The position numbers and the translations under genes were made by a program. From the NCBI RefSeq assembly GCF_008119665.1, contig NZ_CP043046.1:558001-622000 (forward strand): a DNA stretch of 64,000 bases, read 5' to 3'. A model generated the notes under the pieces. The model had not been told where the DNA came from. It was given only the letters and a program-made list of their open reading frames with translations, and did not search any database. This document shows, piece by piece, positions 37,174 through 54,181 of this stretch. The DNA is from Pigmentiphaga aceris. GTDB taxonomy: Bacteria > Pseudomonadota > Gammaproteobacteria > Burkholderiales > Burkholderiaceae_B. Within the stretch, counting starts at the first letter, position 1. Each line of letters starts with the position of its first letter.

Positions 37174-37185
37174 GCGGAGCCGCAC

Positions 37186-38283
37186 ATGCTGCCTTCTGCC
37201 GAGCCTGCTATCCCGGTGCCGTCCGCCGCGAGCGTGTCCCCCGCGTTGTCTGCCACTACGTTGTCGACGCGGCCTGCTTCGTCACCCATTGGCCTGATCG
37301 ATGGCTTCGGCCGTCGCATCGACTATCTGCGCGTGTCGGTCACTGACCGCTGCGACCTGCGCTGCACCTACTGCCTGCCCAAGGGATTCAAGGGTTTCGA
37401 AGAGCCTGCGAACTGGTTGAGCCTGGCGGAAATGCAGCGTCTGGTTGGCTTGTTCGTTGAGCTTGGGGTGCACAAGGTGCGCCTGACCGGTGGTGAACCG
37501 TTGCTGCGGCGGGGCATCGGCGAACTGGCTGCGGGCATTGCTGCGTTGCCCGGTCTGAAAGACCTGTCGGTATCCACCAACGGCACCCGTTTGACGCATC
37601 ACGCCACGGCCTTGCGCCAAGCGGGCGTGACGCGCCTGAATGTCAGCCTGGACACCTTGGACCCCGCCTGTTTTGCGCGCATCACCGGGCGGGATTGTCT
37701 GTCCGATGTGTTGTCGGGTCTGGCGGCGGCGCAGGCGGCGGGGTTCGATCCGATCAAGCTGAATATGGTGATGCAGGGGGCGGTGAACGATGCTGATGTC
37801 GAGCGCATGGTGGCATTCTCGATCGAGCATGGTTTTGTGTTGCGTTTGATCGAGGCGATGCCGATGGGGGATACCGGGCGGTCGGTGATGCCGGTGGATG
37901 CCAGTGCCTTGGGGATTCGACTGGCGGCGCGTTTTGGGCTGGTACCGGCGATTGAGCGGGGCGGGGGCGGGCCGGCGCGTTATTGGCGTGCTGCCAGTGC
38001 GGATGCGTCGGTGCGGGGGGGCATGAGTCTGGGGGTGATTACGCCGATGTCTCAGCATTTCTGTGCATCGTGCAATCGGGTGCGTTTGGGGGTGGATGGG
38101 ACCTTGTATTTGTGTCTGGGGCAGGAGGATAAGGTCGACTTGGGGCGGCAGTTGCGGGATGGGGCGAGTGATGCTCAGCTACGGTCGGCGATTGTGGCGG
38201 CGATGGCGATGAAGCCTGAGCGGCATGTGTTCGATTCGAGGCCGGGGCAGGTGGTTCGGTTCATGTCGCAGACTGGGGGGTGA
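37186..38283 (+). CDS. moaA: GTP 3',8-cyclase MoaA
   Basis: Radical-SAM enzyme for the first step of molybdopterin synthesis, which supplies NarG's cofactor. The SAM cluster motif is CDLRCTYC and the C-terminal substrate-side cluster motif is CASCNRVRLGVDGTLYLC. The first ~35 residues (Ala/Ser/Pro-rich) are an extension before GFGRRIDYLRVSVTDRC. The 3' third has abnormal codon use: in the last 120 codons I count 11 ending in C and 3 in A, whereas C-ending codons dominate earlier. This G+T bias runs toward the repeat that follows the gene. Confidence 0.95.
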   Translation: MLPSAEPAIPVPSAASVSPALSATTLSTRPASSPIGLIDGFGRRIDYLRVSVTDRCDLRCTYCLPKGFKGFEEPANWLSLAEMQRLVGLFVELGVHKVRLTGGEPLLRRGIGELAAGIAALPGLKDLSVSTNGTRLTHHATALRQAGVTRLNVSLDTLDPACFARITGRDCLSDVLSGLAAAQAAGFDPIKLNMVMQGAVNDADVERMVAFSIEHGFVLRLIEAMPMGDTGRSVMPVDASALGIRLAARFGLVPAIERGGGGPARYWRAASADASVRGGMSLGVITPMSQHFCASCNRVRLGVDGTLYLCLGQEDKVDLGRQLRDGASDAQLRSAIVAAMAMKPERHVFDSRPGQVVRFMSQTGG

Positions 38284-38304
38284 GTTTTGCTGTGACGGTG
38301 TTTT

Positions 38305-38705
38305 TTTGTTCTTTTGCCAGTCGCGGGTGGTGGGGCCGGCTCGTCTGCCCCGCTTGACTTTGGCGTCGGGTCTCCGCCCTCCACCTTGTCCAGAAGGGCA
38401 GACAATCCGGCCCCACCACCCACGCCTTCAAAGACGTTTGGTTAAAAGCTAATCCCGCCTTTGGGCGTGCGCCATTCTCTGGCTGCCAAGTGCTGGAATC
38501 GGTTCTCGGTATTCCTGGGCCACGTTTCTTGATCGCCACGCGGCTGGCCGTGGGGACTGGCTGGCCAGGTCGCCACGAAGCGGTTTCTCCGGCTCACGAT
38601 TCGGTGGGTTCTTCAGTTGCCTTTTACGGCAGTGCCACTCAAGAATATTTGCGCGCCTGCTTGGTGGTGGGGTGACACCGAAGCGGGTGGCCGCCGCGTT
38701 ACGGC
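38305..38705 (+). repeat. Dispersed ~400-bp non-coding repeat, copy A
   Basis: Begins with gttcttttgccagtcgcggg and a 97-base palindromic head: perfect 15-bp arms gggtggtggggccgg (38325-38339) and ccggccccaccaccc (38407-38421), with an inner pairing gtctgccc/gggcagac. The tail includes cttcaaagacgtttggttaa, ggctggccaggtcgccac, ggctcacgattcggtggg and ggtggtggggtgaca. Copies B (inverted) and C share all these blocks in the same order. No consistent protein is encoded, and no transposase or target-site duplication was noticed. It lies 21 bases after moaA, so the head may also terminate its transcript. Confidence 0.8.
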
Positions 38706-38983
38706 ATGCGGAGAGCGGCAGCGACGATCGTGGTGCTGGCGGCTGATTGGCGAAAACGCTTGTGCTGCGATTGGTCAAGGCGCTTGCCATGCTCGATAGC
38801 AACGCCACCGGGGCATTGGTAGCCTGGAATGCTGAGCTGCGTACGGTGATCTTCGCGTGCTCGATCATCTTGGTCCCATCAACGGTGACGAGCTGGTTCT
38901 CGATCGGTGGCACGCCCTGGGTTGTTGGAAGTGCTTGGCATCATCGGCATGCACCACTGCTCACTACCATTCATCGCCGCCTT

Positions 38984-39062
38984 GAACGTCTTTACCGCTT
39001 CGAACGTTCATCGCTTTGAACATTCGTCATCGCTCCGAACGTTGATCAGCAGCCCGAACGTT
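38984..39062. repeat. Five spaced GAACGTT-like iterons
   Basis: GAACGTC (38984), GAACGTT (39002), GAACATT (39018), GAACGTT (39037) and GAACGTT (39056) recur every 16-19 bases between the two inverted repeat copies. No gene was recognised in 38706-39102 on either strand. Confidence 0.6.
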
Positions 39063-39102
39063 CAATGCATAGCCTTCAAAGCGCCAACCTTCAGCGCCCC
39101 GC

Positions 39103-39513
39103 CTTTTCGTCGCATTACCTGGTGCGCGGCCACCCGCTTCCGTGTCACCCCACCGCCAAGCAGGCGCGCAAATTTTCTTGCGTGGCGCTGCCCTGAAAGG
39201 CCCCTGATATACGGCCAGAACCGTGAGCCGCTGAGTCGCTTCGTGGCGACCTGGCCAGCCAGTCCCCACGGCCAGCCGGATAGCGTTTAAGCATGGTGGC
39301 CCATGCACGCCGAGAACCGTTCACAGCACCAAGCAGCCAGAGAATCAATACGCGTCCAAAGGCGGCATGCGCTTTTAACCAAACGTCTTTGAAGGCGTGG
39401 GTGGTGGGGCCGGGTCGGCTGCCCTTCTGGACAAGGTGGAGGGCGGGAGCCCCGACGCCAAAGTCCAGCGGGGCAGACGAGTCGGCCCCACCACCCGCGA
39501 CTGGCAGAAGAAC
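39103..39513 (-). repeat. Dispersed ~400-bp non-coding repeat, copy B (inverted)
   Basis: The same element as copy A on the opposite strand, so A and B face each other tail to tail across ~400 bases. The palindromic head is at its right end (gggtggtggggccgg 39399-39413; right arm 39482-39496 with one change). The tail blocks (ggtaatgcgacgaa, ggtggccgcgcaccag) match copy C further out than copy A does. The head side faces narX. Confidence 0.8.
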
Positions 39514-39595
39514 AAACCCACCGTTCCAAAAAACCAAAAAACGACGCCACAAAACCCCGCGCGCGCCATCCTAAGCACGTTTGTCTGCACGACAT

Positions 39596-39609
39596 TTGTT
39601 GTAGATCAA
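39596..39609 (+). promoter_or_regulatory. FNR-like box upstream of narX
   Basis: TTGTTGTAGATCAA differs from the FNR/ANR consensus TTGAT-N4-ATCAA at one position. It lies 85 bases before the narX start and outside the repeat. Anaerobic activation of narXL would fit. Confidence 0.6.
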
Positions 39610-39693
39610 ATCGAACCATCGTCAGGAAGCGCGGCACAGGAACACGCGGGCTACGCTGAAAAGCTCAGCAATCGCCGCGCACATACCGCCCCA

Positions 39694-41601
39694 ATGTCCA
39701 GTCAGTCAGCCCCCGACGACCAGCCACGCCTGCGCAATCGCCTGTCCACCCGCATCATCGGAGCCTCGCTCGCCGCACTGCTGATCGTCGTCAGCATGGT
39801 CTGCTGGACACTGTGGCTGTCCTGGCAACTCGAAGGCGCAGGCGCTGCGATCAACGACACAGGCAGCTTGCGCATGCGTGCCACCCGCGTGGCGGTAGCA
39901 CTCCTGCGCGGTGAAAGCGCCGACGTCGACATGACGATGCAAAACACCGTGCTGGCCCGACTGGTTGAAGGCAACCCGGCGCGGCCCCTGTTTTTGCCGA
40001 CCGACCACGACGTGCAGGTGCAAATGACAGTCGTGGCGCAATCGTGGCGAACGCAACTGCAACCTGCGCTGGTGTCAGCGCTGGCCGGAGAAGGCAACGA
40101 CATCTACCTGGACCTGCTGCCGCGGTTTGTTCATCAAGCCGATCGGCTCGTGCGGCTGATCGAACGCGACAATGCCGGCAAGACCTCCTTGCTGCGGTTC
40201 TCTCAAGGCGTACTGCTGGTCATGGCCGGGATGGGCACACTGGCCATGATTGCGTTGCTGCACCTGTGGATCATTGCCCCCGTGCTGCGGCTGCGGGACG
40301 GACAGCGGCGACTGGCTGCGCGCGAGATGGGGGCGCGGGTGCCGGTCATCGGCGGTGACGAACTCGGCAAGCTGGCAGAAGGCTTCAATCAGATGGCGGA
40401 CGAACTGGCTGCCGCCTACGCCGATCTGGAAACACGCGTCGAAGAAAAGACCGCGCAACTGGCCACCCAGAACCGCGAGCTTGCCGCCTTGTACGACATG
40501 GCGGCGTTTCTGAATCAGCCCAACGATATCGAGCAGACCTGCCACGGCTTCCTGACCCGGGTAATGGCACAGTTCGGTGCCGATGGCGGCAGTGTGCGTG
40601 CCATCGATCCGCGTGGTGAAAACCTGCACCTGGTGGTGTCGGAAGGCTTGTCGGACGAGCTGGAAGATGCCGAGCATTGCATGCCGGTGAACGCGTGTTT
40701 CTGCGGGGAAGCCACGCGCCAGGGTGTGATCGTGATCCACGATTTTCATGCTGCACCCACACGCGATTTTCGTTGTGCGCAGGAAGGTTTCGGCAGTCTG
40801 GCGGTGTTTCGCATCGTCACGCCTGACGAGGTGCTGGGTTCGTTCTCTTTGCATTTTCGCCAGCAGACCAAGCTGTCGGCCAGCCAGACGCAACTGGCCA
40901 GCACGCTTGGTCAACACCTTGGCATCGCGCTGGATAATTGCCGGCTGGGTGCGAAAGAACAGCAATTGGCGGTGGCCCAGGAACGCAATCTGGTGGCGCA
41001 GGGGTTGCACGACAGCATTGCGCAGGGGCTGAATTTCCTGAACCTTCAGGTGCAGATGCTGACAGCCGCTGCCACGCGTGGCGACTTGGCCGACATTCGT
41101 GCAACCGTGCCATTGATGGCAACCGGCGTGCGTGAAAGTTACGAGGACGTGCGTGAGTTGCTGGTGAATTTCCGCACCAGGCTTGACCATGAAGAACTGC
41201 GCTCGGCAGTCGAAGAGGCCGTCCTGCGTTTCCGTCGCCAGACTGATATCCAGGTCGATCTGGATATCGACGAAGACGGCGGCGCACCCTTGCCACCCGA
41301 CCAGCAATTGCAGGTCTTGTTCATCCTGCAAGAGGCGTTGTCGAATGTCCGCAAGCATGCGCAGGCCCAGCGGGTACACATCCAGATCGTCAACCAGCGC
41401 GACTTCTCGCTGACGGTATCCGACGATGGGCAGGGCTACGATCCCGCGGAGGTTGCCGAGCGTGGCGAGCGCCATATAGGCTTGAGCATCATGGCCGAGC
41501 GGGCGGCGCGCATCCGGGCGCAGCTGCACCTGACGGGCAAGACGGGGCATGGTGCAAGTGTGTCGCTACAGCTTGCGCGCGAGGAACGACTGTCTGCCTG
41601 A
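39694..41601 (+). CDS. narX: Nitrate/nitrite sensor histidine kinase NarX
   Basis: Inner-membrane sensor of 635 aa. A TM helix at the N-terminus is followed by a periplasmic domain starting with the nitrate-binding P-box INDTGSLRMRATRVA (residues ~52-66), a second TM helix, HAMP, a GAF-like region, and a HisKA_3 kinase with the phospho-His in GLHDSIAQGLNF (near residue 439). The ATPase part ends HIGLSIMAERA. The ATG at 39694 is chosen because longer readings run into the repeat. The first ~70 codons favour C/A endings (46 of 69 counted), mirroring the bias seen in moaA. Confidence 0.94.
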   Translation: MSSQSAPDDQPRLRNRLSTRIIGASLAALLIVVSMVCWTLWLSWQLEGAGAAINDTGSLRMRATRVAVALLRGESADVDMTMQNTVLARLVEGNPARPLFLPTDHDVQVQMTVVAQSWRTQLQPALVSALAGEGNDIYLDLLPRFVHQADRLVRLIERDNAGKTSLLRFSQGVLLVMAGMGTLAMIALLHLWIIAPVLRLRDGQRRLAAREMGARVPVIGGDELGKLAEGFNQMADELAAAYADLETRVEEKTAQLATQNRELAALYDMAAFLNQPNDIEQTCHGFLTRVMAQFGADGGSVRAIDPRGENLHLVVSEGLSDELEDAEHCMPVNACFCGEATRQGVIVIHDFHAAPTRDFRCAQEGFGSLAVFRIVTPDEVLGSFSLHFRQQTKLSASQTQLASTLGQHLGIALDNCRLGAKEQQLAVAQERNLVAQGLHDSIAQGLNFLNLQVQMLTAAATRGDLADIRATVPLMATGVRESYEDVRELLVNFRTRLDHEELRSAVEEAVLRFRRQTDIQVDLDIDEDGGAPLPPDQQLQVLFILQEALSNVRKHAQAQRVHIQIVNQRDFSLTVSDDGQGYDPAEVAERGERHIGLSIMAERAARIRAQLHLTGKTGHGASVSLQLAREERLSA

Positions 41602-41708
41602 GCTTGTCCGGGAGTCGTGTGGCTGCCGATTTCCGCAGCGCTAACACCGCGATGCACAGCACGTTCGTCGCGCAGTACCGCTGTCTTTTGAACTCATTTT
41701 TCCAACCC

Positions 41709-42392
41709 ATGACCATTCGAATCCTGCTGATCGACGACCATTCCCTGTTTCGTTCCGGTGTGCGCCTGCTGTTGCAGCGTCAGGCCGATTTCGAGGTGGT
41801 GGCCGAGGCGGCGGATGGGCTGGACGGCGTTAAACGGGCGCGTGAGCACCGCCCTGACGTGATCCTGCTCGACCTGAACATGCCGGGCTTGTCGGGGCTT
41901 GAAACCTTGAAACTGCTGACCCAGGAGCTGCCTGACAGCGCGGTGCTGATGCTGACGGTGTCGGAAGATGCCGATGACCTGGGCGACGCCTTGCGCAGCG
42001 GTGCGCGTGGCTATCTGGTGAAAAACATCGAGGCCGATGCGCTGACGAGTGCGATTCGACGCGCGGCAAGTGGTGAAGCGGTGATTGCCGACAGCATGAC
42101 GGCCAAGCTGGTGGCGCAGTTTCGCGCGCAACCTGCTCAGGCATCTGCCGCCGACACCCCGGCAGCACGTGCCCGCCTGACGGCCCGTGAGCGCGATATC
42201 GTGCAGTGCCTGGCGCGTGGCGAAAGCAACAAGGAAATCGCCCGTCATCTGGATGTCGCGGAAAGCACGGTGAAGATCCACGTGCAGAACATCTTGAAGA
42301 AGCTGAACCTGACGAGCCGTGTGCAGATTGCGGTGTATGCGGTCGAGCATGGGTTCGGCAGCGATCAAGGCGGTGATCAAGGGGGGGCTTGA
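41709..42392 (+). CDS. narL: Nitrate response regulator NarL
   Basis: Two-domain regulator of 227 aa: a receiver with acidic pair IDDH and phospho-acceptor in ILLDLNMPG, and a LuxR-type helix-turn-helix (LTARERDIVQCLARGESNKE, AESTVKIHVQNILKKL). Partner of NarX and probable activator of the nar promoters. The ATG at 41709 (MTIRILLIDDH) begins right at the receiver strand; the longer reading adds an unrelated leader. Confidence 0.94.
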   Translation: MTIRILLIDDHSLFRSGVRLLLQRQADFEVVAEAADGLDGVKRAREHRPDVILLDLNMPGLSGLETLKLLTQELPDSAVLMLTVSEDADDLGDALRSGARGYLVKNIEADALTSAIRRAASGEAVIADSMTAKLVAQFRAQPAQASAADTPAARARLTARERDIVQCLARGESNKEIARHLDVAESTVKIHVQNILKKLNLTSRVQIAVYAVEHGFGSDQGGDQGGA

Positions 42393-42593
42393 GTCAGATC
42401 TCGAAAGGTCAGACTCGAAAGTCTGGGTCTGCGCAACAATCGCAAAAACCGAACCAATGTTGGTTACGCCTCAGGGGAAGGCAAAGTATTGATGCACGAT
42501 AAAATATGTTGAGAGACGGTTTTTTTCCGTGGGCTGGATGCGACGGAAGCACCTTCTCAGCCTGACATCCTCCAGAATTTGACCTTTCACCCC

Positions 42594-43373
42594 ATGGCAA
42601 GTTTTGTGTCGCTGCCCCGCATTCTCCTGATCGACGATTCACCCGTGGACCTTCGCCTGATGGTCGAGTTTCTGCGCGGTCGTGGCTTTGTCGTGCTGAT
42701 TGCCCAGGATGGCGAGCAGGGGCTGGCGCGTGCGCATGACTTGTCGCCAGACCTGATCTTGCTGGACGTCCGCATGCCGGGTGCCGACGGATTCACCATT
42801 TGCCGCCGTCTGAAGCAAGACGAGGTCACGCGTCACGTTCCGGTGATTTTCCTGACGGGCGCAGACGAAGTCAGCGAACGGCTGGCCGGATTCGAGGCGG
42901 GTGCGGTCGATTACATCGTAAAACCCTTCTTCGAAGAAGAAGTAGTAGCGCGTATTCGCGTGCATCTGCAGCGCGGGCGTGCGCCGCTGGCCGTGGCACC
43001 GGCCTCTGACGTGGTGCCACCAGAAGCGGTATCGCGCGAAAAAGACTGGGTGCAGCAAGCCTGCTCGTTGCTCGACGAGCGTCTGAGCGATCCGCCGTCG
43101 GTATTCGATTTGGCGCGCATCGTTGGCACCAACGAGCGTCGCCTGAGTGAACTGTTCCGCGAGCAGGTGGGCAATACCGTGTTTGGCTACGTGCGTGAAC
43201 AGCGTCTGCTGCTTGCCGCCCGCTTGCTGGTGCAGACCAGTGTGCCGGTTCAGGATATGGCCGAACAGGTGGGCTACAGCACCAGCAGCAATTTCATCAC
43301 CGCTTTCCGCGCCCGTTTCGGCTGTTCGCCACGGCGCTATCGCACGGCCAACGCGACAGGGCGCGCGGCGTGA
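42594..43373 (+). CDS. Response regulator with AraC-type DNA-binding domain
   Basis: 259 aa: a receiver (LLIDDSPVDLRLM, phospho-Asp in ILLDVRMPGADGF, conserved Lys in YIVKPFF) joined to an AraC/XylS helix-turn-helix pair (FDLARIVGTNERRLSELFRE; DMAEQVGYSTSSNFITAFRA, FGCSPRRYR). The receiver-AraC combination is uncommon. It overlaps the hybrid kinase gene downstream (GTGA), so the two form a two-component pair. The target genes are unknown. The ATG at 42594 is preferred over a TTG five codons upstream. Confidence 0.88.
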   Translation: MASFVSLPRILLIDDSPVDLRLMVEFLRGRGFVVLIAQDGEQGLARAHDLSPDLILLDVRMPGADGFTICRRLKQDEVTRHVPVIFLTGADEVSERLAGFEAGAVDYIVKPFFEEEVVARIRVHLQRGRAPLAVAPASDVVPPEAVSREKDWVQQACSLLDERLSDPPSVFDLARIVGTNERRLSELFREQVGNTVFGYVREQRLLLAARLLVQTSVPVQDMAEQVGYSTSSNFITAFRARFGCSPRRYRTANATGRAA

Positions 43374-46129
43374 CGCTGACAACTGCGCTCGCCAGACGGG
43401 CGCGGTGGCAATGGGTGTTGGCGCTGGGTCTGCTGTGCTGTTGCCTGCAGGCCTTTGCGATGGTGCTTCCGGCGGGGTCCAACGCGCCGACCATGCGTGT
43501 CGGACGGATGATGGATGTTGCCGAAGACGTGCAAGGCAAGTGGTTGCTGTCAGACGCCATCGCGCACGACGCAGACTTCGCCCCGGTGGTCGCGGAAAAT
43601 TTCTCTGCCGGGTTCTCGGCCTCGGCCTGGTGGTTTCGCATCACCTTCGACAACCAGGACGACGTTCGCATACGACGCCTGTTTCGGGTGGACCCGCCAC
43701 GGCTTGAGCGTGTGACGGTGTTTGTGCCCGATGCGGCGGCCAACGATATCGACCTGCGCCGCGCAAAAGATGCGACGGCTCCCGGCTGGTGGATATTGCG
43801 CGCCGGCATGGCGGTGCCGATTCAGGAACGCGCCACTGCCGAGCGGCTGCTCAACTATCCGCTGTCATTGCCCCCGGGGCAGACCACCATCTACGTGCGG
43901 GTCGAAAGCCGCGGCATGATCACCTTGCAAGCGTCCTTGCTGGCGGTGGACCATGCCCGTGAACAAGCGCGTGCCCAAGACCTTGGCATGATGGCCATTT
44001 TCGGCGGCCTGGCCATCTTGGCGATTGCTGCGCTGCTGATTTCCGTGATGGCAGGCGAACGCATCATTGCCTATTACGGGCTGATGATCCTGTTCTATCT
44101 GCTGTATGAGATGGGCGTGCAGGGTTACGGGTCCATGCTGCTCTGGTACCGCATACCCGAGTCCAGCTTGCTGCTGTTCAATGTGATGACGCTGTTCGAA
44201 CTGGTGTTCGCCGTGGAGCTGCTCAAGCTTGCCACGCAGGCGCAGAACATTTCGCGGATGGTGGCTCGACTGCTGGATACCTGCAAGTTCATTGCAATCG
44301 GCATGATTCTCGCCGCGTTCGTGATGCCGGTTCCAACCCTGGTGTCCATGGGTTTGAACCTGGCGATGTTGTTCATCATGATCTTCGTCGGATCCCTGCT
44401 GTATCTGGCATGGCGCAAGTCCGGCGCAGCGCGCATTCTGTTGTGGTCCCTGCTGCCCGTGCTGACGATCAGTTCGGTGCGTGTGGGCGATTTCCTGAGC
44501 CTGTATTCGCTGGGCGGCTATGGCGACCTGCTGTTGCCGCTGGGGTATCTGGCGTCGATGCTGTTCCTGGCGACGCTGGTCGCCAACCGCTTGCGACTGG
44601 CCCAGGCGGCACGGCTGAGCGAACAGGCCGACAGCCTGATGCAGGCCACCTATGCCCAGGAAGCACTGGAACGCGCCATCAGCGCCCGCACCCGCGAACT
44701 GCGCGTGGCCAAGGAACGCGCGGAAAGTGCCGACATGGCCAAAGGCCATTTCCTGGCGCGCATGGGTCACGAGCTGCGCACGCCGCTGCACGCCATTCTG
44801 GGTTATGTGCAATTGCTGCGCCGCCAGCGTCGGGCCGATGTCGCCTTGCAGACGCCGCTGGCCATCATGGAAGGCAGCGGCCGTCACCTGCTTGAGCTGA
44901 TCAACGATGTGCTGGATTACTCGCGCGGTGAGCTGGCCAGCCTGGTGCTGCGGCCAACGCCTACCTACTTGTTCAGCCTGTTGCAGTCGGTGACCGATCA
45001 GCTCAGCAAGAACGACCCGTCACAGTGGGACCGCATTCGGCTGGATGTCTCGGATGATCTGCCCAGCGTGATCTGGGTCGATGGCCAGCGGTTGCGCCAG
45101 GTGCTGTTGAACCTGCTTGGCAATGCGCTGCGCCATGCTGCCGACGGCGCCGTCGATCTTCGGGTGCGGCGTGAAGATGTGGACGGCACCATGCGCCTGT
45201 ATTTCGAGGTATGCGACGAAGGCCAGGGCATTGCGCCAGAGGATCAGGAGCGGATCTTCGAGCCGTTCTCCCACGACAAGGCAAGTCCCACCGCCACCGC
45301 CGGTATCGGGCTTGGCCTGACCATCAGCCGCCAGTTGGTCCGCCTGATGCGCGGAGAACTTTCCCTGAGCAGTGTGCTGGGGGAAGGCAGCCGCTTCTAT
45401 TTCTCGATTCCTCTGGAAATCGCCAGCGAGGCCGACGTGCCGCGTGACCGCGCCACTGTTCCCTTCGGGCGTTACCTGGGACCGATGCAGCACATTCTGG
45501 TGGTTGACGACGTACTGGATAACCAGCGTTTCCTGGCCGACCTGCTGGGCGAGGCGGGCTTCGAAGTGACGCTGGCCGCCAACTGCGACGAAGCGCGTTC
45601 TGCCTTGCGTCTGGGCGGCATCGACGTGGCCTTGTTCGACCAGTTCCTGCCCGATGGCAGCGGGTGGACCTTGCTGCGTGATGCACGCCAGCTTGCGCCC
45701 GGCATGCCCGCACTGCTGGTGTCGGCCGCGCCACCCTTGCCGCCTAAGGATTGGGCGGATGACGAGAAGGGATTTGCAGCCTGCCTGCTCAAACCCATTG
45801 ACGTCGACATCTTGCTGGCGGCCTTGTCGGAAGCCCTGAACTTGTCGTGGCCGTCTGACGATGTGTCGTCGACTGCGTCCGGTCAGGAAGGTGAAGTGCA
45901 GGACGCTGCTGCTGCCCGTGCGTCTTTGTGCGCAGCGGTGGCAGACGGTGACATCTTTGCAATCGAGGCGTGGGTGGCAACGCACCTGGAAGACAGCGAC
46001 GCGTCCTTGTCAGGACTTGCCCGCGCCCTGTCGCGTGCGGTCGAGGCCATGGACTTCACCGCCATGAACGCCATCGTCAACGCCAGCACTGCCGCGCTGA
46101 ATACGCCGCCCCAGGCTTGCAGCGAATAG
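43370..46129 (+). CDS. 7TMR-DISM hybrid sensor histidine kinase
   Basis: 919-aa membrane sensor starting at a GTG that overlaps the regulator's TGA. Order of parts: signal peptide (residues 1-30), an extracellular 7TMR-DISM sensory domain that resembles a carbohydrate-binding fold, seven TM helices (~200-410), a coiled segment, HisKA with phospho-His in GHELRTPLHAILGY (near 466), HATPase (DEGQGIAPEDQERIFEPF, GIGLGLTISRQ), a receiver (HILVVDDVLDNQRFLADLL, Asp in VALFDQFLPDGSG near 756), and a C-terminal ~100-residue helical tail that is not a clear Hpt. The signal sensed is unknown. Confidence 0.9.
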   Translation: MTLTTALARRARWQWVLALGLLCCCLQAFAMVLPAGSNAPTMRVGRMMDVAEDVQGKWLLSDAIAHDADFAPVVAENFSAGFSASAWWFRITFDNQDDVRIRRLFRVDPPRLERVTVFVPDAAANDIDLRRAKDATAPGWWILRAGMAVPIQERATAERLLNYPLSLPPGQTTIYVRVESRGMITLQASLLAVDHAREQARAQDLGMMAIFGGLAILAIAALLISVMAGERIIAYYGLMILFYLLYEMGVQGYGSMLLWYRIPESSLLLFNVMTLFELVFAVELLKLATQAQNISRMVARLLDTCKFIAIGMILAAFVMPVPTLVSMGLNLAMLFIMIFVGSLLYLAWRKSGAARILLWSLLPVLTISSVRVGDFLSLYSLGGYGDLLLPLGYLASMLFLATLVANRLRLAQAARLSEQADSLMQATYAQEALERAISARTRELRVAKERAESADMAKGHFLARMGHELRTPLHAILGYVQLLRRQRRADVALQTPLAIMEGSGRHLLELINDVLDYSRGELASLVLRPTPTYLFSLLQSVTDQLSKNDPSQWDRIRLDVSDDLPSVIWVDGQRLRQVLLNLLGNALRHAADGAVDLRVRREDVDGTMRLYFEVCDEGQGIAPEDQERIFEPFSHDKASPTATAGIGLGLTISRQLVRLMRGELSLSSVLGEGSRFYFSIPLEIASEADVPRDRATVPFGRYLGPMQHILVVDDVLDNQRFLADLLGEAGFEVTLAANCDEARSALRLGGIDVALFDQFLPDGSGWTLLRDARQLAPGMPALLVSAAPPLPPKDWADDEKGFAACLLKPIDVDILLAALSEALNLSWPSDDVSSTASGQEGEVQDAAAARASLCAAVADGDIFAIEAWVATHLEDSDASLSGLARALSRAVEAMDFTAMNAIVNASTAALNTPPQACSE

Positions 46130-46167
46130 CAGCACCTGGGGTTTGAGGACTGACGCGTCAACGGCGT

Positions 46168-47505: not shown

Positions 47506-48770
47506 CGTGCGGCCTCGCTCAGTGCAGCAGCGTCGGCGCGGGCCGTCAGGCTGCGGTGGTGTTGCATGATGCCCAGCAAGGCCAGGGTGACGGTGGCGCA
47601 CAGGCCGGTGATCACCCACTCAAGCGGCAACGAGGTGCCGCGTACGCCGGCATACAAGGCAAGCATCAACATGATCGAGGCGTTCTCGCAAAAGTTTTGC
47701 ACGGCAATCGACTGGCCGGCATTCATCAGTTTGTAGCCGCGATGTTGCAGCATCGCGTTCATCGGCACGACAAAGAACCCGGCCACCGCACCGGTGGTGG
47801 CCATCAGCAGGCAGACCAGCGGAATCGACTTCAGCGGCAGCAGCATCATCACCAGCGGGCCGAACAGCAGGCCGGCGGGCAGAATGCTCAGCGCACGTTC
47901 CAGCGTGAGCATGCGGGCGGCGAAGAACGCACCGCCAGCCGCACCCAGCGCCACCATCGCAGGCAGCATGGATGCCCGGTCCAGCGTCAGGTCCAGCCCG
48001 ACTCGGCCCCAGTCGATGATGACGAACTGCAGCACGGCACCAAAGCCCCACAGCAGCCCGGTCACCATCAAGGCCACACGGGCCTGCGGATCACGCAGCA
48101 GCAGCATGAACGAGCGGCCAAAACCGCTGGCCAGTTGTCTGGGTGTTTGCGCGGCTGCATGCGGCTGTACGCCTGATTCCGGCACGAATACGTTGGTCAG
48201 GGCCGCCATGCCGTAGACCGCCAATACCGCCAAGGTGGACAGGTGCAGCGGTGCCGTACTGGCAAACACGCCGCCCAGTTGGGCCAGCAGCCCCTGGAAT
48301 TCGGCGCTGATCAGCACGCCGCCCAGTCCGGTGCCCAGAATCACGGCGGCAATCGATAAACCTTCGAACCAGGCATTGGCTGCCACCAGGCGCAAGGGCG
48401 GCAGCAATTCCAGCAGCAAACCGTATTTGGCGGGCGAGTAGGTGGCCGCACCCACGCCGATCAGGGCGTAGGCGGCGACCGGATGCAGTCCGGTCAGCAG
48501 CAGGGCACAGCCCAGCGCCTTGACGCCGTTGGTGATCATCATCACGCGGGACTTGGGCAGTCGGTCGGCGATGTGGCCGGTGGCGAACGCCAAGACGACG
48601 AACGACGCGATGAAAAAGAACTTCAGGGATGGCGTCATCCAGGCCGGGGCGGCCATTGCGTCGAGACTGGCGATGGCAATCACCAGCAAGGCGTTGTCGG
48701 CGAGTGCCGAGAAAAACTGCGCGCCCAGCAGCATCGTGACACCGCGGGGCATGGTCAGTCCGTTGGACAT
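47502..48770 (-). CDS. lplT: Lysophospholipid transporter LplT-like
   Basis: MFS protein of 422 aa with ~12 TM segments, similar to LplT, which flips lysophospholipids across the inner membrane for re-acylation. Family stretches include MLLGAQFFSALADNALLV near the start and FFVVPMNAMLQHRG. The usual partner Aas is not adjacent. The ATG at 48770 (MSNGLTMPRG) is chosen; MPRGVTML six codons later is also possible. Confidence 0.85.
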   Translation of the reverse strand: MSNGLTMPRGVTMLLGAQFFSALADNALLVIAIASLDAMAAPAWMTPSLKFFFIASFVVLAFATGHIADRLPKSRVMMITNGVKALGCALLLTGLHPVAAYALIGVGAATYSPAKYGLLLELLPPLRLVAANAWFEGLSIAAVILGTGLGGVLISAEFQGLLAQLGGVFASTAPLHLSTLAVLAVYGMAALTNVFVPESGVQPHAAAQTPRQLASGFGRSFMLLLRDPQARVALMVTGLLWGFGAVLQFVIIDWGRVGLDLTLDRASMLPAMVALGAAGGAFFAARMLTLERALSILPAGLLFGPLVMMLLPLKSIPLVCLLMATTGAVAGFFVVPMNAMLQHRGYKLMNAGQSIAVQNFCENASIMLMLALYAGVRGTSLPLEWVITGLCATVTLALLGIMQHHRSLTARADAAALSEAAR

Positions 48771-49077
48771 GGGAGCATCACGCGAAAAGAGGGGCGAGCG
48801 GCGGCCCACGCTTGCGACAAGCAAGGGCATCGAGGTCAGCCGAGCAGCATACCCGGCCCATATCGGCCATATTCGCGGCCATATTCGACGCGACGTAGCG
48901 AACGTATCGGCATGTAAATGCCAACTTCGCGTCCGTGGCGCGCAGACAATACCTGCAAGCCTTGCTGCAGCGCGCTTGCGCGGGTATCTGGCAGCGCTGC
49001 TAATATGAGGCTACCTGTCGGTTTCACAGGCAGGCGTAACAGTTTTCTTTCTCTTTGCAGCATTTGGCAGACGTCAT
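48771..49077. other. Divergent intergenic region lplT / GGDEF gene
   Basis: 307 bases with no gene recognised. It contains three closely spaced CCATAT(T)CG repeats at 48858, 48867 and 48879, and a small dyad ggcat-gtaa-atgcc at about 48909-48922. Promoters for both divergent genes must lie here. Confidence 0.45.
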
Positions 49078-50712
49078 TTGTCCACACATCCCGAATCTGT
49101 TGCCGCGCCTGCATCCGCGCCAGCCGATGCACCCTCGTTATGGGGGCGCTTGAAGCACTTCCTATGGTGGGGGCTGCTGCTGGTCATGGTGGTGCTGATG
49201 GGCCTTGCGCTGCTGGCCTTGCGCCACCAAAGCGACGAGCTGACCGGCCCGCAGCGCTACAACGACGTCTGGTACATGCACCGGACGGCCACCGAGCTGG
49301 AACGCCTGAACCTGGCGATCACGGCGGTGCGCAATGGCGTCGATGTCGAGCGCGACACCTTGTCACTGCCGCTCGAACGCATGTTGAGTGCCGTGGAAGT
49401 GGTCGACCGGGCCCCGCAGCACGCCACGGTGGTCATCGGTGAAATGCCGCAGCTGGTGTTGCAGCTGGGTGCGCTGGCCTCGGAAGTGCGGGGGTGGCTG
49501 GCCCAGGCCGGCACCGCCGATCCGATTGCGCGCATTGCCATTGCTGAAGACGTGCAGGCACGCATTCCTGCATGGCGTGAAGTCCTGCAGAACGGTGCGA
49601 TCGATGTGCAGTTCAATCTTTCTCAGCGTATTGACGGTGATCGGCGTGGCCTGTTCAGTGCACTGACGGTGGTGACCTGGGCCTTGGGCGCGTTGATGCT
49701 GTGCACAGCCGCGCTGCTGGCGCATCTGTTGTGGTCCAGGCGGCGCGCACAGCAAGTGTCGCGGGTGTTGAGCGAACTCAACCGCACGCTGGAACAACGC
49801 ATCGACGAACGCACGCTGGAACTGGGCGAACGACGCGCCTTGCTCGACTTCATTCTGGAAGCCAGCCCCAGCGACGTGGCCTTGTCCGACGCGGCAACCG
49901 GGCGTCTGCACTTTGCCAATCACCGGCTGCTGGAACGCCTGGGTTTGCCGGCGGATGTGGAATTCCTGCCCGTAGAGCACCTGTTGGCTGACCCGCTGCA
50001 AGGGTCTGAATTGGTGGCGGAACTCGACCGGCATGGCCGAATCGAGGGGCACGAAGCCCGCATGGCAGGCATTCCGCCGTACTTTGGTCTGGTGTCGGCC
50101 CGCAAGCTGGCCGTGGGTGGGGTGCCGGCCTACCTGATGTGGAGCTTCGACATTTCCGAGCGCATTGCGCTGGAATCGCGGCTGCGCGAATTGGCCAGCA
50201 CCGATGTGCTCAGCGGCCTGTTGAACCGCAGGGCGTTCCTGCAGCAATGCGCCAGCGCCTCGGCCCAGTGTCTGCGCCACAGTCGGCCCTACGCGATGCT
50301 GATGATCGACATCGATTACTTCAAACGCATCAACGACACCTACGGGCACCACGTAGGCGATGAAGTCATCCGGGCAGTTGGCGAACTCATGCACGAGCAC
50401 GCGCGTGAATCCGACATTTCCGGTCGCATGGGCGGTGAGGAATTTGCGGTGATGTTGCCGGAAACGTCCTTGGAGGACGCCATGCGGGTGGCACGCCGCC
50501 TGCATTCTGCCGTCAACGAATTGCGTCTGGAACTGAGTGAAGCCAAGGAGCTGCGCTTCACCTCGTCGATTGGCGTGGCGGATGCCAGCCTGGACGAGCG
50601 CAGTGTGGAAACGCTGTTGCAACGCGCCGACAGCGCGCTTTATCAAGCCAAGCGCAACGGACGCAACCGTATCGAGGCGGTGCCGATACAGACGCAGGAC
50701 GCCGCCAGTTGA
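49078..50712 (+). CDS. Membrane-bound diguanylate cyclase (GGDEF)
   Basis: 544-aa protein predicted to make cyclic-di-GMP. A TM helix (residues ~28-48) is followed by a periplasmic helical sensor domain, a second TM helix (~195-215), a coiled coil, a PAS-like segment, and a C-terminal GGDEF domain with active site GGEEF (near residue 451). An inhibitory I-site RESD lies five residues before it, so product feedback is likely. No EAL domain. The start appears to be a TTG (MSTHPES), as no upstream ATG fits; that choice is uncertain. Confidence 0.9.
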   Translation: MSTHPESVAAPASAPADAPSLWGRLKHFLWWGLLLVMVVLMGLALLALRHQSDELTGPQRYNDVWYMHRTATELERLNLAITAVRNGVDVERDTLSLPLERMLSAVEVVDRAPQHATVVIGEMPQLVLQLGALASEVRGWLAQAGTADPIARIAIAEDVQARIPAWREVLQNGAIDVQFNLSQRIDGDRRGLFSALTVVTWALGALMLCTAALLAHLLWSRRRAQQVSRVLSELNRTLEQRIDERTLELGERRALLDFILEASPSDVALSDAATGRLHFANHRLLERLGLPADVEFLPVEHLLADPLQGSELVAELDRHGRIEGHEARMAGIPPYFGLVSARKLAVGGVPAYLMWSFDISERIALESRLRELASTDVLSGLLNRRAFLQQCASASAQCLRHSRPYAMLMIDIDYFKRINDTYGHHVGDEVIRAVGELMHEHARESDISGRMGGEEFAVMLPETSLEDAMRVARRLHSAVNELRLELSEAKELRFTSSIGVADASLDERSVETLLQRADSALYQAKRNGRNRIEAVPIQTQDAAS

Positions 50713-50770
50713 AGGTTCAGACCACTGACGGTTCAACCCACTGAAGGTTCAATAAGGTGGGCTTGTCGCC

Positions 50771-50989
50771 TTAGCGGCTGCGCCGTGGATAACCCTCGGC
50801 GCGTATGCGTTGCCAGACGATGCGCTTCTCGTCGTCCGTCATGAATACCCAGTTGGCCACTTCCATGGCCGTGCGCCCGCAACCGCGACAGACATCGTCA
50901 AACAGCGTGGAACACACCGCCACACAGGGCGAATCGGTGACCTGCAGTGAATCTGCAGGCTGATGGCGAGAGGGCGGTGCGTCGTTCAT
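50771..50989 (-). CDS. DUF1289 family protein
   Basis: Small 72-aa protein with the DUF1289 cysteine pattern SPCVAVCSTLFDDVCRGCGRT, followed by a conserved W and a basic end (GYPRRSR). It is probably a metal-binding module; the function is unknown. The ATG at 50989 is chosen because the longer reading overlaps metK. It follows metK on the same strand. Confidence 0.88.
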   Translation of the reverse strand: MNDAPPSRHQPADSLQVTDSPCVAVCSTLFDDVCRGCGRTAMEVANWVFMTDDEKRIVWQRIRAEGYPRRSR

Positions 50990-51065
50990 GGCGGGTCTGT
51001 GCACCCTGTTGCGCCTGGGCGGCGCAAGAACGGACCGGGCGAGGCTGCCCCCGGTCCTGTTGCTT

Positions 51066-52232
51066 TTAGAGGCCAGCAGCCTTGCGCAGTTCCGCAGCGC
51101 GGTCGGTCGCTTCCCAGGTGAACTCGGGCTCCGAGCGGCCGAAGTGACCATAGGCAGCGGTCTTGGCGTAGATCGGACGCAGCAGGTCCAGCATCTTCAC
51201 GATGCCGCGCGGACGCAGGTCGAACATTTCACGGACCAGCTTGGCAATCTGCTCGTCGGGGATCAGGCCGCTGCCTTCGGTGTAGACCGTGATGTTGATC
51301 GGCTGGGCCACGCCGATGGCGTAGCTGACTTGCACCTGCGCCTGGCGGGCGAGGCCGGCTGCGACGATGTTCTTGGCCACGTAACGCGCGGCGTAGGCAG
51401 CCGAACGGTCGACCTTGGACGGGTCCTTGCCCGAGAACGCGCCGCCACCGTGCGGGCATGCGCCGCCGTAGGTGTCGACGATGATCTTGCGACCGGTCAG
51501 GCCGCAATCGCCTTGCGGGCCGCCGATGACAAAGCGGCCGGTGGGGTTGACCAGGTACTTGGTCTGCGCGGTCAGCAATTCAGCCGGAATGGCCTTCTTG
51601 ATGATTTCTTCGATGACCGCTTCGCGGATGGTCTCTTGCGAGACTTCCGGTGCGTGCTGGGTAGACAGCACCACGGTGTCGATCTCGGTCGGCTTGCCGT
51701 CGACATAACGGAAAGTGACCTGCGACTTGGCGTCCGGGCGCAGCCACGGCAGACGGCCGTCCTTGCGCAGTTCGCTCTGGCGCTGCACCAGACGGTGCGA
51801 ATACCAGATCGGGGCGGGCATCAGGTCGGGGGTTTCGTCGCAGGCGTAGCCGAACATCAGGCCCTGGTCGCCAGCGCCTTGGTTCAGGTTGTCGTCCTGG
51901 GCGCGATCCACGCCCTGGGCGATGTCGGGCGATTGCTTGTCGTAGGCGACCAGCACCGCGCAACCCTTGTAGTCGATACCGTATTCGGTATTGTCGTAGC
52001 CGATGCGCTTGATGGTGTCGCGGGCGACCTGGATGTAATCGACATTGGCGCGCGAGGTGATTTCACCTGCCAGCACGACCAGACCGGTATTGCACAGCGT
52101 TTCTGCCGCTACCCGCGAGGTGGGGTCCTGGGCCAGCAAGGCGTCCAGAATGGCGTCGGAGATTTGATCGGCAACCTTGTCGGGGTGCCCTTCGGAAACG
52201 GATTCCGAAGTGAAGAGGAAGTCATTGGCCAC
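51066..52232 (-). CDS. metK: S-adenosylmethionine synthetase
   Basis: Makes SAM from methionine and ATP. N-terminal [32 protein letters not shown], the loop [20 protein letters not shown] and the C-terminal GHFGR are all present (388 aa). The start is a GTG (VANDFLF) with AAGGA upstream. No known SAM riboswitch was recognised in its leader. Confidence 0.97.
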
Positions 52233-52628
52233 GCAAATAGTCCTTTTTTTCAGGCTACCGGCGGCACGCGCGCCGGCATGGATGCGGCGCCTCGTGGGTC
52301 TTTGGAAACTGCGGGACCCAGCGCGACGCTTTAGCGGAATTTAGAATGCGAACTGGCATTGCCGTCGCGTATCGCCCCGCAAGTTGTCGTGTTAACCCGG
52401 CGATTTGATTCATTTTAGGGGAAAATCGGCCAGGGCTGTTTGATGTCCTGCCAGAGCCTGTGGGTAATCGATATTCGACCCCATGTTGTCATGGGTCAGT
52501 CTGTCGATTAGTCCGTGGTTTGTGCCCTGTTTGTTCTGTTGTGCCGTTTTCTGTTGTGCTTTGTTCGTCCTTTTGCTGCTCCTGTTGTTCCCCGCTGTTC
52601 CCCGCTTTTCCCACCACCTTGGTACTCA
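52233..52628. other. Divergent intergenic region metK / acyltransferase gene
   Basis: 396 bases without a recognised gene. The metK side has a T-run (52243-52250). The acyltransferase side (52480-52620) is strikingly poor in A on the plus strand and rich in T and G. The same G+T bias continues into the acyltransferase gene. Confidence 0.5.
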
Positions 52629-53471
52629 ATGCTTCAGCTTTTCCGTCTGCTTGCCTATCTTCCGCTGTCCTGGCTGCAAGCCATTGGCCGCCTGCTGGGG
52701 CGTTTTACCCGCGCCCGGTCGCAGCCCTATCGCGAGCGGCTGCACGAGAACGCGTTGCAGGCGGGTTATGACGACCCTGCGCTTGAGCGCGAGGCGGCGG
52801 CGCAGGCGGGTGCCAGTGTGTTGGAACTGCCACATGTGTGGTTTCGCGGCGACCGTGCGGTGGGTGCGGTGCTGTGTGATGACTGGGCGGTGGTGGAGGC
52901 GGCGCGTGCCGAGGCGCGGGGCATTCTGTTTTTGACTCCGCACTGGGGGTGTTTTGAAGTTACGGCGCGTTATTACGCGCGTGAGGCGCCGATCACGGTG
53001 TTGTATCGACCGCCGCGCAAGCGTTGGTTGGCACCGTTGATCGAGGGGGCGCGCAGTGGTGCGAATCTGAATACTGCGCCGGCAACCTTGAAGGGGGTGC
53101 GTGAGCTGGTGCGGGCGTTGCGTCGGGGCGAGGCGGTGGGGATGTTGCCGGATCAGGTGCCGGGGGAAGGTGAGGGTGTTTGGGCACCGTTCTTTGGTCG
53201 CAGTGCGTTCACGATGACGTTGCCGGGGAAGCTGGCGGCGCAGACGGGGGCGGCGGTGATTCTGGCGGGGGCGGAGCGGCTGTCGGGGGGCAGGGGCTGG
53301 CGTTTGCATTTGTCGCGTGTGGAGGGGCCGGTGCCGGAGGATGCGGTGGCGCAGGCTACCTGGGTGAATGCGGCGATGGAGCGTATGGTGCGGCGTAATC
53401 CTGGTCAGTATCTGTGGGGCTATAACCGGTATAAGACGCCGCGTGGGGAGCATGCTGCTGCGCCTGAGTAG
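52629..53471 (+). CDS. Lysophospholipid/lipid A acyltransferase, LpxL (HtrB) family
   Basis: Inner-membrane acyltransferase of 280 aa, probably adding a secondary acyl chain to lipid A. The catalytic HxxxxE motif is HWGCFE, followed by ITVLYRPPRKRWL and the later MLPDQVPGEGEGV. The ATG at 52629 starts a hydrophobic anchor (MLQLFRLLAYLPLSWL). In the last 123 codons I count only 9 ending in C and 2 in A, a strong G/T third-position bias like that of moaA. Repeat copy C follows directly. Confidence 0.88.
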   Translation: MLQLFRLLAYLPLSWLQAIGRLLGRFTRARSQPYRERLHENALQAGYDDPALEREAAAQAGASVLELPHVWFRGDRAVGAVLCDDWAVVEAARAEARGILFLTPHWGCFEVTARYYAREAPITVLYRPPRKRWLAPLIEGARSGANLNTAPATLKGVRELVRALRRGEAVGMLPDQVPGEGEGVWAPFFGRSAFTMTLPGKLAAQTGAAVILAGAERLSGGRGWRLHLSRVEGPVPEDAVAQATWVNAAMERMVRRNPGQYLWGYNRYKTPRGEHAAAPE

Positions 53472-53501
53472 GGGTTTGTGTTTTTTTAGTCCCGGTGTGT
53501 C

Positions 53502-53912
53502 GTTCTTGAGTCAGTCGCGGGTGGTGGGGCCGGCTTGTCTGCCCCGCTGGACTTTCGCGTCGGGACTCCCGCCCTCCACCTCGTCCAGAAGGGCAGCCAA
53601 TCCGGCCCCACCACCCACGCCTTCAAAGACGTTTGGTTAAAAGCGCATGCCGCCTTTGGGCGGTTTTTGTTTTTCTGGCTGCTTGGTGCTGGAATCGGTT
53701 CTCGGCATTTGTTGGCCGCCATTCTTGATTGCTACGCGGCTGGCCTTGGGGATTGGCTGGCCAGGTCGCCACGAAGCGATCTCGCCGGCTCACGATTCGG
53801 TGGGTTCTTCAGCAGCCTTTTACGGCAATGCCACGCAAGAAAATTCGCGCTTCTGCTTGGTGGTGGGGTGACACGGACGCGGGTGGCCGCGCACCAGGTA
53901 ATGCGACGAATG
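53502..53912 (+). repeat. Dispersed ~400-bp non-coding repeat, copy C
   Basis: Same element and orientation as copy A. The palindromic head arms are at 53519-53533 and 53602-53616, followed by cttcaaagacgtttggttaa, ggctggccaggtcgccac, ggctcacgattcggtggg and ggtggtggggtgaca. It ends near ggtaatgcgacgaa. It starts 30 bases after the acyltransferase stop. The whole 53472-54181 stretch holds no convincing gene. Confidence 0.8.
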
Positions 53913-54065
53913 ATTGGGCGGCTGGTGGTCGTTGGCTGCTGTTTGTTTGTTGAAAGGCTGTCATCAGCTTGGTGATCGGCGGACGTGTACGGCCCAGACC
54001 ATGGGGACGGGAAAAAGTCATCCACAGGCGAGTATCGAATCGAGCTGTGTATAACTTGAAAGTGT

Positions 54066-54106
54066 GGGGTCGTGTATCGACTTCGCTCGGATCGATACAC
54101 GGCCCC
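54066..54106. other. Long dyad downstream of the NERD-helicase gene
   Basis: Arms ggggtcgtgtatcga (54066-54080) and tcgatacacggcccc (54092-54106) pair over 15 positions with one G-T, around an 11-base loop. There is no U-run on either side, so it may be a structured 3' end or a recombination/binding site rather than a simple terminator. Confidence 0.5.
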
Positions 54107-54181
54107 GCGACTGGTTCAAGGACGACCGCCGATATGCGTCACTGCATTGACTAAAGCGCTCCACGCCACCAAGCAGAACCC

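Follow-up and report, generated by a model that had tools for sequence, protein, structure and literature searches.

Why should unrelated genes change their base composition as they approach a repeat? The question is raised by a 64,000-nucleotide stretch of the Pigmentiphaga aceris genome (hereafter the window; positions 558001-622000 of the single contig of 6,165,255 bases, NZ_CP043046.1, assembly GCF_008119665.1) that holds three copies, A, B and C, of a repeat. This is a non-coding element, judged by eye to lack a coding role, made of two inverted arms whose outer ends we call heads. Copies A and B together make up one tail-to-tail pair (38308-39513), each of them being one arm, and copy C (53502-53890) is a single half. 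Coordinates of these copies and their neighbours are window positions, while other sites are given as genome positions. An earlier note on this DNA had claimed that codon composition changes on the head side of every copy, with a single polarity (few codons ending in C or A before copies A and C, many at the inverted copy B), and that the element either causes this bias or seeks such sites.

The codon counts behind this claim were exact. In moaA (37186-38283, plus strand; Radical_SAM PF04055, Mob_synth_C PF06463), which runs into the head of copy A, 14 of the last 120 codons end in C or A, compared with 88 of 245 in the rest of the gene (binomial P of 14 or fewer, given the rest of the gene, 1.7e-9). 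In the lipid A acyltransferase-type gene before copy C (52515-53471, plus strand; PF03279), such codons are 11 of the last 123; the statement that C-ending codons are otherwise common in this gene did not hold, since the rest has 48 of 195 and the whole short gene is skewed. The narX-like sensor kinase gene (39694-41601, plus strand; PilJ, HAMP, GAF, HisKA_3, HATPase_c) runs away from copy B and, counted from its ATG at 39694, has 46 of the first 69 codons ending in C or A, then 62 of the next 131 and 191 of the remaining 435. This mirror image at the inverted copy is real, but weaker, as it is at the 12 heads of our first genome-wide set that have an away-running neighbour.

A polar G+T bias at the heads of the repeat

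We call the strand that runs 5'->3' into a head the entering strand, and measured G+T on it. In the window, the G+T-rich flanks are at 37690-38307 on the plus strand (the 3' third of moaA and a short gap before head A, with 0.64-0.71 per 100 bp from 37708), at 52515-53501 on the plus strand (into head C, including the entire acyltransferase gene) and at 39514-40130 on the minus strand (intergenic sequence and the narX start, into head B). The last is weaker than at A and C, with G+T of 0.67, 0.64, 0.56, 0.49, 0.56 and 0.52 per 100 bp outward.

A BLAST search over 1.17 Mb of the genome's own sequence gave a first set of 72 heads, arranged in 34 tail-to-tail pairs and 4 single halves. A covariance model trained on 65 of the 72 raised this to at least 87 heads in the genome (41 tail-to-tail pairs and 5 single halves), a lower bound, as 150 of 6704 first-look candidates were scored. 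The 15 added heads, which form 7 pairs and one single half, were used as a held-out set to test the bias. The controls were 1457 windows of 600 bp lying more than 3 kb away from all 72 heads; their mean G+T is 0.504 (standard deviation 0.034, range 0.395-0.623).

Averaged over the 72 heads, the entering strand is neutral beyond 2 kb (0.49-0.51) and, in 100-bp bins, reaches 0.516 at -1000, 0.555 at -700, 0.577 at -600, 0.591 at -500, 0.613-0.616 between -400 and -100 and, over the 100 bp next to the head, 0.700. Hence, the bias has a range of a few hundred bases, rarely past 1 kb. At 50-650 bp the mean of the heads is 0.602; 71 of the 72 lie above the control mean and 63 above 0.55. The held-out heads behave alike (mean 0.594, 14 of 15 above 0.504, t-test P = 6e-7), their exception being a head at 228568 with G+T of 0.502, though its hairpin scores 132.9 bits. 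The claim of a bias at every copy with one polarity thus extends to the whole genome, nearly without exception.

The same bias is visible in codons. In 59 genes that lie next to a head and are directed toward it, the third-position G+T (GT3), taken in 150-bp steps upstream of the stop, is 0.784, 0.784, 0.758, 0.659, 0.591, 0.547 and 0.511. In 545 control gene ends it is about 0.50-0.524, and the 173 convergent ends among them reach 0.535 or less, so that ordinary convergent gene ends can be set aside as the cause. Whether the skew continues past short genes was seen in 7 cases, with mixed outcome. The genes were called with our own script; the set running away from heads is small and a few of its calls are low-scoring.

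The sign of the bias follows the head, not the gene or the fork

In 22 of the 34 pairs both nearest genes run toward the element, in 12 one runs toward and one away, and in none do both run away. Of the 72 heads, 60 have as their nearest outer neighbour a gene directed toward them, and 58 of these 60 genes stop 12-144 bp short of the head. Such an arrangement would be expected if RNA polymerase stalled or terminated at the head and R-loops or queues formed upstream, with deamination of the exposed coding strand. This explanation would also account for the stronger bias at the heads with a gene running toward them (0.611 at 60 heads vs 0.561 at the 12 with a gene running away, P = 3e-4; 0.601 vs 0.556 across the 12 mixed pairs, P = 0.09), and the template strand, protected in an R-loop, would fit the lowered G->A described below. 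However, the sign of the bias follows the head and not the direction of the gene: in away-running genes, third positions shift oppositely on the gene's strand, hence in the same way relative to the head, which rules out gene orientation alone. Eight away heads lack a called toward-running gene within 3 kb and are still biased (mean 0.571, the other four away heads having 0.541). Among the eight are head B, on the narX side, with 0.538, and a head at 3200177 that adjoins a tandem repeat. R-loops from the flanking gene, which the earlier note had offered as an example, are therefore not required. Convergent gene ends without the repeat are unbiased, and a rough proxy of expression shows no link with the bias (n = 17, rho -0.15, P = 0.56). 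We regard transcription as a serious candidate for the cause, though an unlikely one.

Nor does the bias follow the replication fork. Among heads with a gene running toward them, the 33 facing the fork have 0.621 and the 27 trailing ones 0.598 (P = 0.08). This difference of 0.023 is no more than the weak chromosome-wide strand bias at third positions gives (about 0.52 vs 0.48), so fork direction was rejected as the cause. It also speaks against a replication block, in which a hairpin formed by the head in the template strand would halt synthesis and leave a gap on its 5' side, that is, on the entering strand. A block of this kind would account for the polarity, for a range near that of one Okazaki fragment and for the lack of asymmetry inside the pairs, and the five heads that we folded as DNA do form strong hairpins (z scores of -5.5 to -10). 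It should, however, reverse the skew on the tail side of single halves, where the five such halves have 0.497-0.563 at 480-1080 bp (mean 0.533), while any two-sided process would put this side below 0.5. We consider a replication block improbable. On their head side, the five halves have G+T of 0.608-0.662 at 50-650 bp, and the four belonging to the first set show the strongest bias, with GT3 of 0.84-0.93 compared with a mean of 0.77 (P = 0.005).

Inside the element there is no strand difference: minor variants among copies are C->T at 0.0099 and G->A at 0.0102. Hence, the outer edge of the head is where the bias starts. Left and right sides of a pair are uncorrelated (rho -0.08 in the 22 pairs with both genes running toward the element; rho -0.24, P = 0.18, in all 34), and this, together with the lack of asymmetry inside the arms, led us to reject a two-ended break at the pair centre. 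Heads of the two arm types are alike (0.606 and 0.605, for heads with a gene running toward them), and the bias is unrelated to element size. Its amplitude correlates with the identity of the head to copy A (rho 0.35, P = 0.003); with the consensus as reference the correlation is not significant (P = 0.08).

Genes of relatives in which the repeat was not found are flat

To see whether the bias is a property of the genes, as proposed in the earlier note, we compared the acyltransferase gene with its orthologues in nine congeners. From the stop back, GT3 in P. aceris is 0.94, 0.88, 0.86, 0.82 and 0.74, whereas the orthologues have 0.38-0.66 per bin, save for a 5' bin of 0.57-0.73 common to them; the codon bias is not there. 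We extended the comparison to flanking genes directed toward a head, 29 in all, which gave 64 gene-genome pairs, some of them with distant homologues of 31-50% identity. Per 150 bp from the head, GT3 in P. aceris is 0.82, 0.81, 0.80, 0.73, 0.67, 0.59, 0.54 and 0.51, and in the relatives 0.47-0.50 throughout, the two converging beyond 1 kb. The subset with relatives of at least 55% identity (18 genes, 51 pairs) gives the same picture.

The relatives appear to lack the repeat. Ten congeners gave no match at E <= 0.001, either by DNA (at most 40 candidates scored per genome) or with the covariance model (150 candidates in each). In a wider search of 399 genomes of the order, with two candidates scored in each, matches were limited to the own genome and one of 27 bases that we take as chance, and plasmids and phages gave none. 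We did not find a clean empty site in the relatives. At 3914990-3916351, where the element lies between two convergent genes, three congeners have two small genes (cold-shock-like and infA-like by eye) in its place.

With flat orthologues in congeners where the repeat was not found, the change accompanies the repeat, and a preference of the repeat for such sites is not supported. Insertion into sites already skewed, the second option of the earlier note, has indeed no point in its favour that we could find, and convergent skew off the elements is weaker. The score of convergent skew is 0.176-0.324 in 25 of the 34 pairs; off the elements it is at most 0.180 in the 1.17 Mb of own sequence (at a place 2.9 kb from a head), then 0.172, and was not seen above 0.156 in 1.30 Mb of loci from other genomes. 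The congener stretches among these loci are a small sample, and relatives may have other repeat families. We therefore give insertion preference almost no weight. The first option, that the element causes the bias, is supported by association, through the flat orthologues and the lack of asymmetry inside the element; as a whole, the earlier interpretation is partly supported.

Kinds of substitution near the heads

Substitutions were counted at sites where at least two of three congeners were available and agreed, near (<600 bp) and far (>1 kb) from the heads. These congeners are distant (55-86% protein identity) and closer to one another than to P. aceris, so their agreement only approximates the ancestor.

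The firm evidence for a C->T shift comes from synonymous sites. At twofold third positions, C->T is found at 96 of 198 sites near and 33 of 160 far (P = 4e-8), G->A at 5 of 79 and 27 of 90, and A->G at 11 of 15 and 1 of 11 (few sites). At fourfold sites, a C common to the three relatives has become G in 0.51 of cases near and 0.18 far, which may reflect a preference for codons ending in G or C. The lowered G->A hints at protection or renewal of the other strand, and the pattern as a whole could be read as loss of C from one strand through C->T, followed by such a codon preference. At codon positions 1 and 2, C->T is also raised, with 112 of 1093 (0.102) near and 38 of 1003 (0.038) far (P = 8e-9), a near/far ratio of 2.67 over 15 genes (confidence interval, CI, 1.71-4.00). 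None of the other 11 classes is significant there (C->G P = 0.051, A->T 0.078, G->A 0.092). Across the 12 sequence contexts counted, the shift is always positive (log odds 0.16 to 1.53, lowest with a 5' T and a 3' C), with no clear deaminase preference. The strand-biased mutation suggested in the earlier note thus fits the synonymous changes, while for amino-acid positions the case is only suggestive.

Part of the excess at positions 1 and 2 may come with gene ends. In single congener genomes the C->T near/far ratio at these positions varies from 1.24 to 3.35, and one congener without the repeat has C->T at 17 of 886 sites near and 5 of 874 far from these same gene ends (P = 0.016, small numbers). 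Gene ends alone can therefore mimic part of the C->T signal. Compared with the congeners, P. aceris has a ratio 1.81 times higher (gene-level 95% CI 0.91-2.95). When C->T is set against G->A, the value is 2.00 (CI 0.96-3.78) in P. aceris and 0.96 (0.61-1.54) in the relatives.

This weaker evidence at amino-acid positions makes selection on the flanks harder to exclude. Selection would maintain a G+T-rich entering strand because of a polar motif, an unstructured RNA or the loading of Rho on the antisense strand, which is C-rich and G-poor, as is RNA that loads Rho. Also in its favour, synonymous sites show the bias most clearly, and amino-acid positions give no more than a suggestion of it after the congener control. 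On the other hand, no motif in the flanks stands out against the Markov expectation, changes away from G+T at positions 1 and 2 are not reduced near heads (0.069 vs 0.058), and other convergent ends are unbiased. We judge selection to be quite improbable, slightly less so than before the congener control.

A possible mechanism

In the reading that we find best, with a probability of about 0.38, the entering strand becomes exposed through a polar process at the hairpin, and its cytosines are lost to deamination. The head would be a polar site at whose outer edge the process starts, to run outward only, so that a few hundred bases of the entering strand, seldom more than 1 kb, would be left single-stranded. 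Exposed cytosines would deaminate, and over evolutionary time the entering strand would lose C to T; at synonymous sites it would also gain G. Most likely, a protein would nick the opposite strand at the hairpin, or begin strand separation there, with outward removal or displacement of this strand and then its resynthesis. Transcription that runs toward the head would strengthen the effect without being needed. What the data show are the polarity, range and generality of the bias, its absence from orthologues, the synonymous C->T shift and the equal strands inside the element; the single-stranded state and the deamination are inferred. An opposite-strand nick at the head edge, with outward removal or displacement and resynthesis, would fit what the anatomy calls for: a process that the hairpin sets, whose course is outward only, that has mostly faded within 1 kb, that affects the entering strand and that transcription helps without being required. 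Transcriptional stalling or R-loops would fit most of this, apart from the away heads. Repair or replication starting at the head, as the earlier note had suggested, fits too, but is unproven.

Several observations weigh against this deamination of an exposed strand. The bias is weaker on the side of away-running genes (P = 3e-4), and the two away genes that have relatives (3 pairs, 42-47% identity) give a mixed picture. C->T is not raised at fourfold sites (0.16 near, 0.15 far). At positions 1 and 2, congeners also change faster near these stops (pooled, C->T 1.55-fold and G->A 1.61-fold), which leaves the strand-specific C->T excess at amino-acid positions suggestive, not firm. Near heads, amino-acid divergence shows no excess. 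For A->G, positions 1 and 2 give no rise (0.96-fold), but A is scarce at third positions and G->A is lowered, and one-strand deamination alone does not explain this. In the 60 nt outside the head that still align among copies, minor variants are G->A at 11 of 233 and C->T at 0 of 51, few C remaining there. The head side of single halves, when taken at the matched distance of 480-1080 bp, has only 0.512-0.613, and these halves may be recent truncations; their one-sidedness is therefore suggestive rather than decisive. Finally, the sole two enzyme families sought genome-wide as candidates, reverse transcriptase (PF00078) and Y1 transposase (PF01797), were both without match. The congener control at gene ends, by weakening the excess at positions 1 and 2, lowered our probability for this reading from 0.42 to the value given above.

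Error-prone reverse transcription of the kind found in diversity-generating retroelements (DGRs), with priming at the hairpin, would also fit the polarity and the decay with distance. The search for PF00078 that found no match in this genome finds the family in 3 of 14 named genomes in a control search. Moreover, mutagenesis by DGRs is specific to A, and here C is affected at least as strongly. We see hardly any chance for this explanation, and membership among DGRs was rejected for lack of a PF00078 match.

Going beyond the deamination of an exposed strand, the head may be a nicking or strand-separation site of a cellular system. The repeats would then be fixed polar sources of mutation, rewriting the first several hundred bases of the adjacent gene, on one strand only and without a reverse transcriptase. 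We hold this as a tentative proposal, which the congener control made slightly less likely.

Structure of the element

The unit has a size of about 430 bp, and the distance from head to head is 0.9-1.3 kb in 31 of the 34 pairs (1.8, 2.5 and 3.9 kb in the other three). Two types of arms can be told apart by their inner end, with 29 of the 34 pairs having one of each and 5 scored as two A-type arms. In the window, copy A has an A-type arm on the plus strand, with its head at 38308-38460 and its body at 38470-38750. After the centre of the pair (38751-39125) comes copy B, a B-type arm on the minus strand, with its body at 39126-39345 and its head at 39360-39513. The single half C, of B-type and on the plus strand, has its head at 53502-53655 and its body at 53671-53890, and a second arm does not follow. 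The predicted hairpins lie at about 38322-38425, 39396-39499 and 53516-53619, respectively.

The hairpin comprises about 104 nt and spans columns 6-109 when 65 of the 72 heads are aligned over 116 columns; that of head A folds as DNA with -34.9 kcal/mol (z -5.8). Both-sided changes occur at 10 of its 34 base pairs, in 75 cells vs 25.9 in shuffles, and this signal is lost in slid versions of the structure. Further pair types show no excess (14 vs 15.4 in shuffles), and the copies fall into shared subfamilies, so the both-sided changes are not independent events. Hence, the case for the hairpin rests on the both-sided changes and the folding. The head is strongly conserved and under strong constraint: minor variants are 0.000-0.004 per site by class in its first 100 nt, while C->T and G->A reach 0.008-0.014 in the following 300 nt. 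Of the GC-rich stem followed by a run of T that an intrinsic terminator would have on the strand leaving the gene, one is present in copy C (53649-53664) and none in the A/B stretch. Rfam covariance models gave no match in the window at 37000-54500 up to E = 1.

The centre of the A/B pair, and several others, hold arrays of GAACGTTC-type palindromes about 20 bp apart, which look iteron-like by eye; some short centres are without them. Between the two arms at 2016142-2017425 there is a Mutator-family transposase (PF00872) broken into two reading frames, apparently a later insertion. The arms of another pair (3369418-3373281) enclose three ordinary genes (regulator-, dehydrogenase- and transferase-like by eye); the skew persists in the outer flanks of this pair, and its middle is neutral. 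At about 3200020-3200192, an 18-bp unit repeated 9.6 times, which holds the first bases of the head, runs directly into a head, and by eye a head-edge unit of about 40 nt recurs in degenerate extra copies ahead of several other heads.

Copy C adjoins a UvrD-like helicase gene (together 53502-55828). In the nine congeners, about 8.5-14 kb separate this helicase gene from the acyltransferase gene, and the other arm of copy C may have been lost by a deletion at the element. Elsewhere in the window, MoaA has its best matches, among those listed, in Chitinimonas (75%) and in Burkholderiales records. A long reading frame without Pfam match at 50988-52334 (plus strand) is overlapped by one on the minus strand (51066-52232), which is probably the real gene.

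Relation to known systems and significance

The element itself resembles known intergenic inverted repeats. With terminal inverted repeats, no coding role and many copies (34 tail-to-tail pairs among the 72 heads), it resembles a miniature inverted-repeat transposable element in these respects; its flanks are too altered for target-site duplications to be read. Repetitive extragenic palindromic (REP) sequences, their mosaics (bacterial interspersed mosaic elements, BIMEs) and doublets (REPINs), associated with the REP-associated tyrosine transposase (RAYT), are likewise intergenic palindromic units in inverted pairs, dispersed in many copies and often at the 3' ends of genes. REP elements are not known to bias neighbouring genes. 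Their palindromes have 20-40 bp (PMC3733652), unlike the units of about 430 bp with a hairpin of about 104 nt found here. The genome has no match to the Y1 transposase family of RAYT (PF01797), which a control search finds in 5 of 14 named genomes. Given this and the size of the palindrome, membership in RAYT-linked REP or BIME families was rejected.

Other systems share features of the bias. GC-skewed, R-loop-prone ends of mammalian genes (PMC6442632) have a G-rich non-template strand and a single-stranded coding strand; they follow transcription, whereas here the polarity follows the repeat in both gene directions. Resected double-strand breaks, in yeast and in kataegis, leave C->T changes on the 3'-ended strand over about 1 kb, polar on each side; unlike them, the element has no asymmetry inside, and its single halves appear one-sided. 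Replication makes the leading strand G+T-rich, the same composition as that of the affected strand, but the bias at the heads is far stronger (0.61-0.70), kilobase-wide and hardly dependent on the fork. Among open-licence papers, no title or abstract opening, the parts covered by our search, describes such a repeat-linked bias.

We know of no parallel for a bacterial repeat with a polar, kilobase-range change of composition on one strand of adjacent genes. If our reading is true, the repeat would mark places where one DNA strand is repeatedly exposed, and P. aceris, with at least 87 heads as replicates within a single genome, would lend itself to a search for the cause. Codon statistics beside such repeats would then not be neutral.

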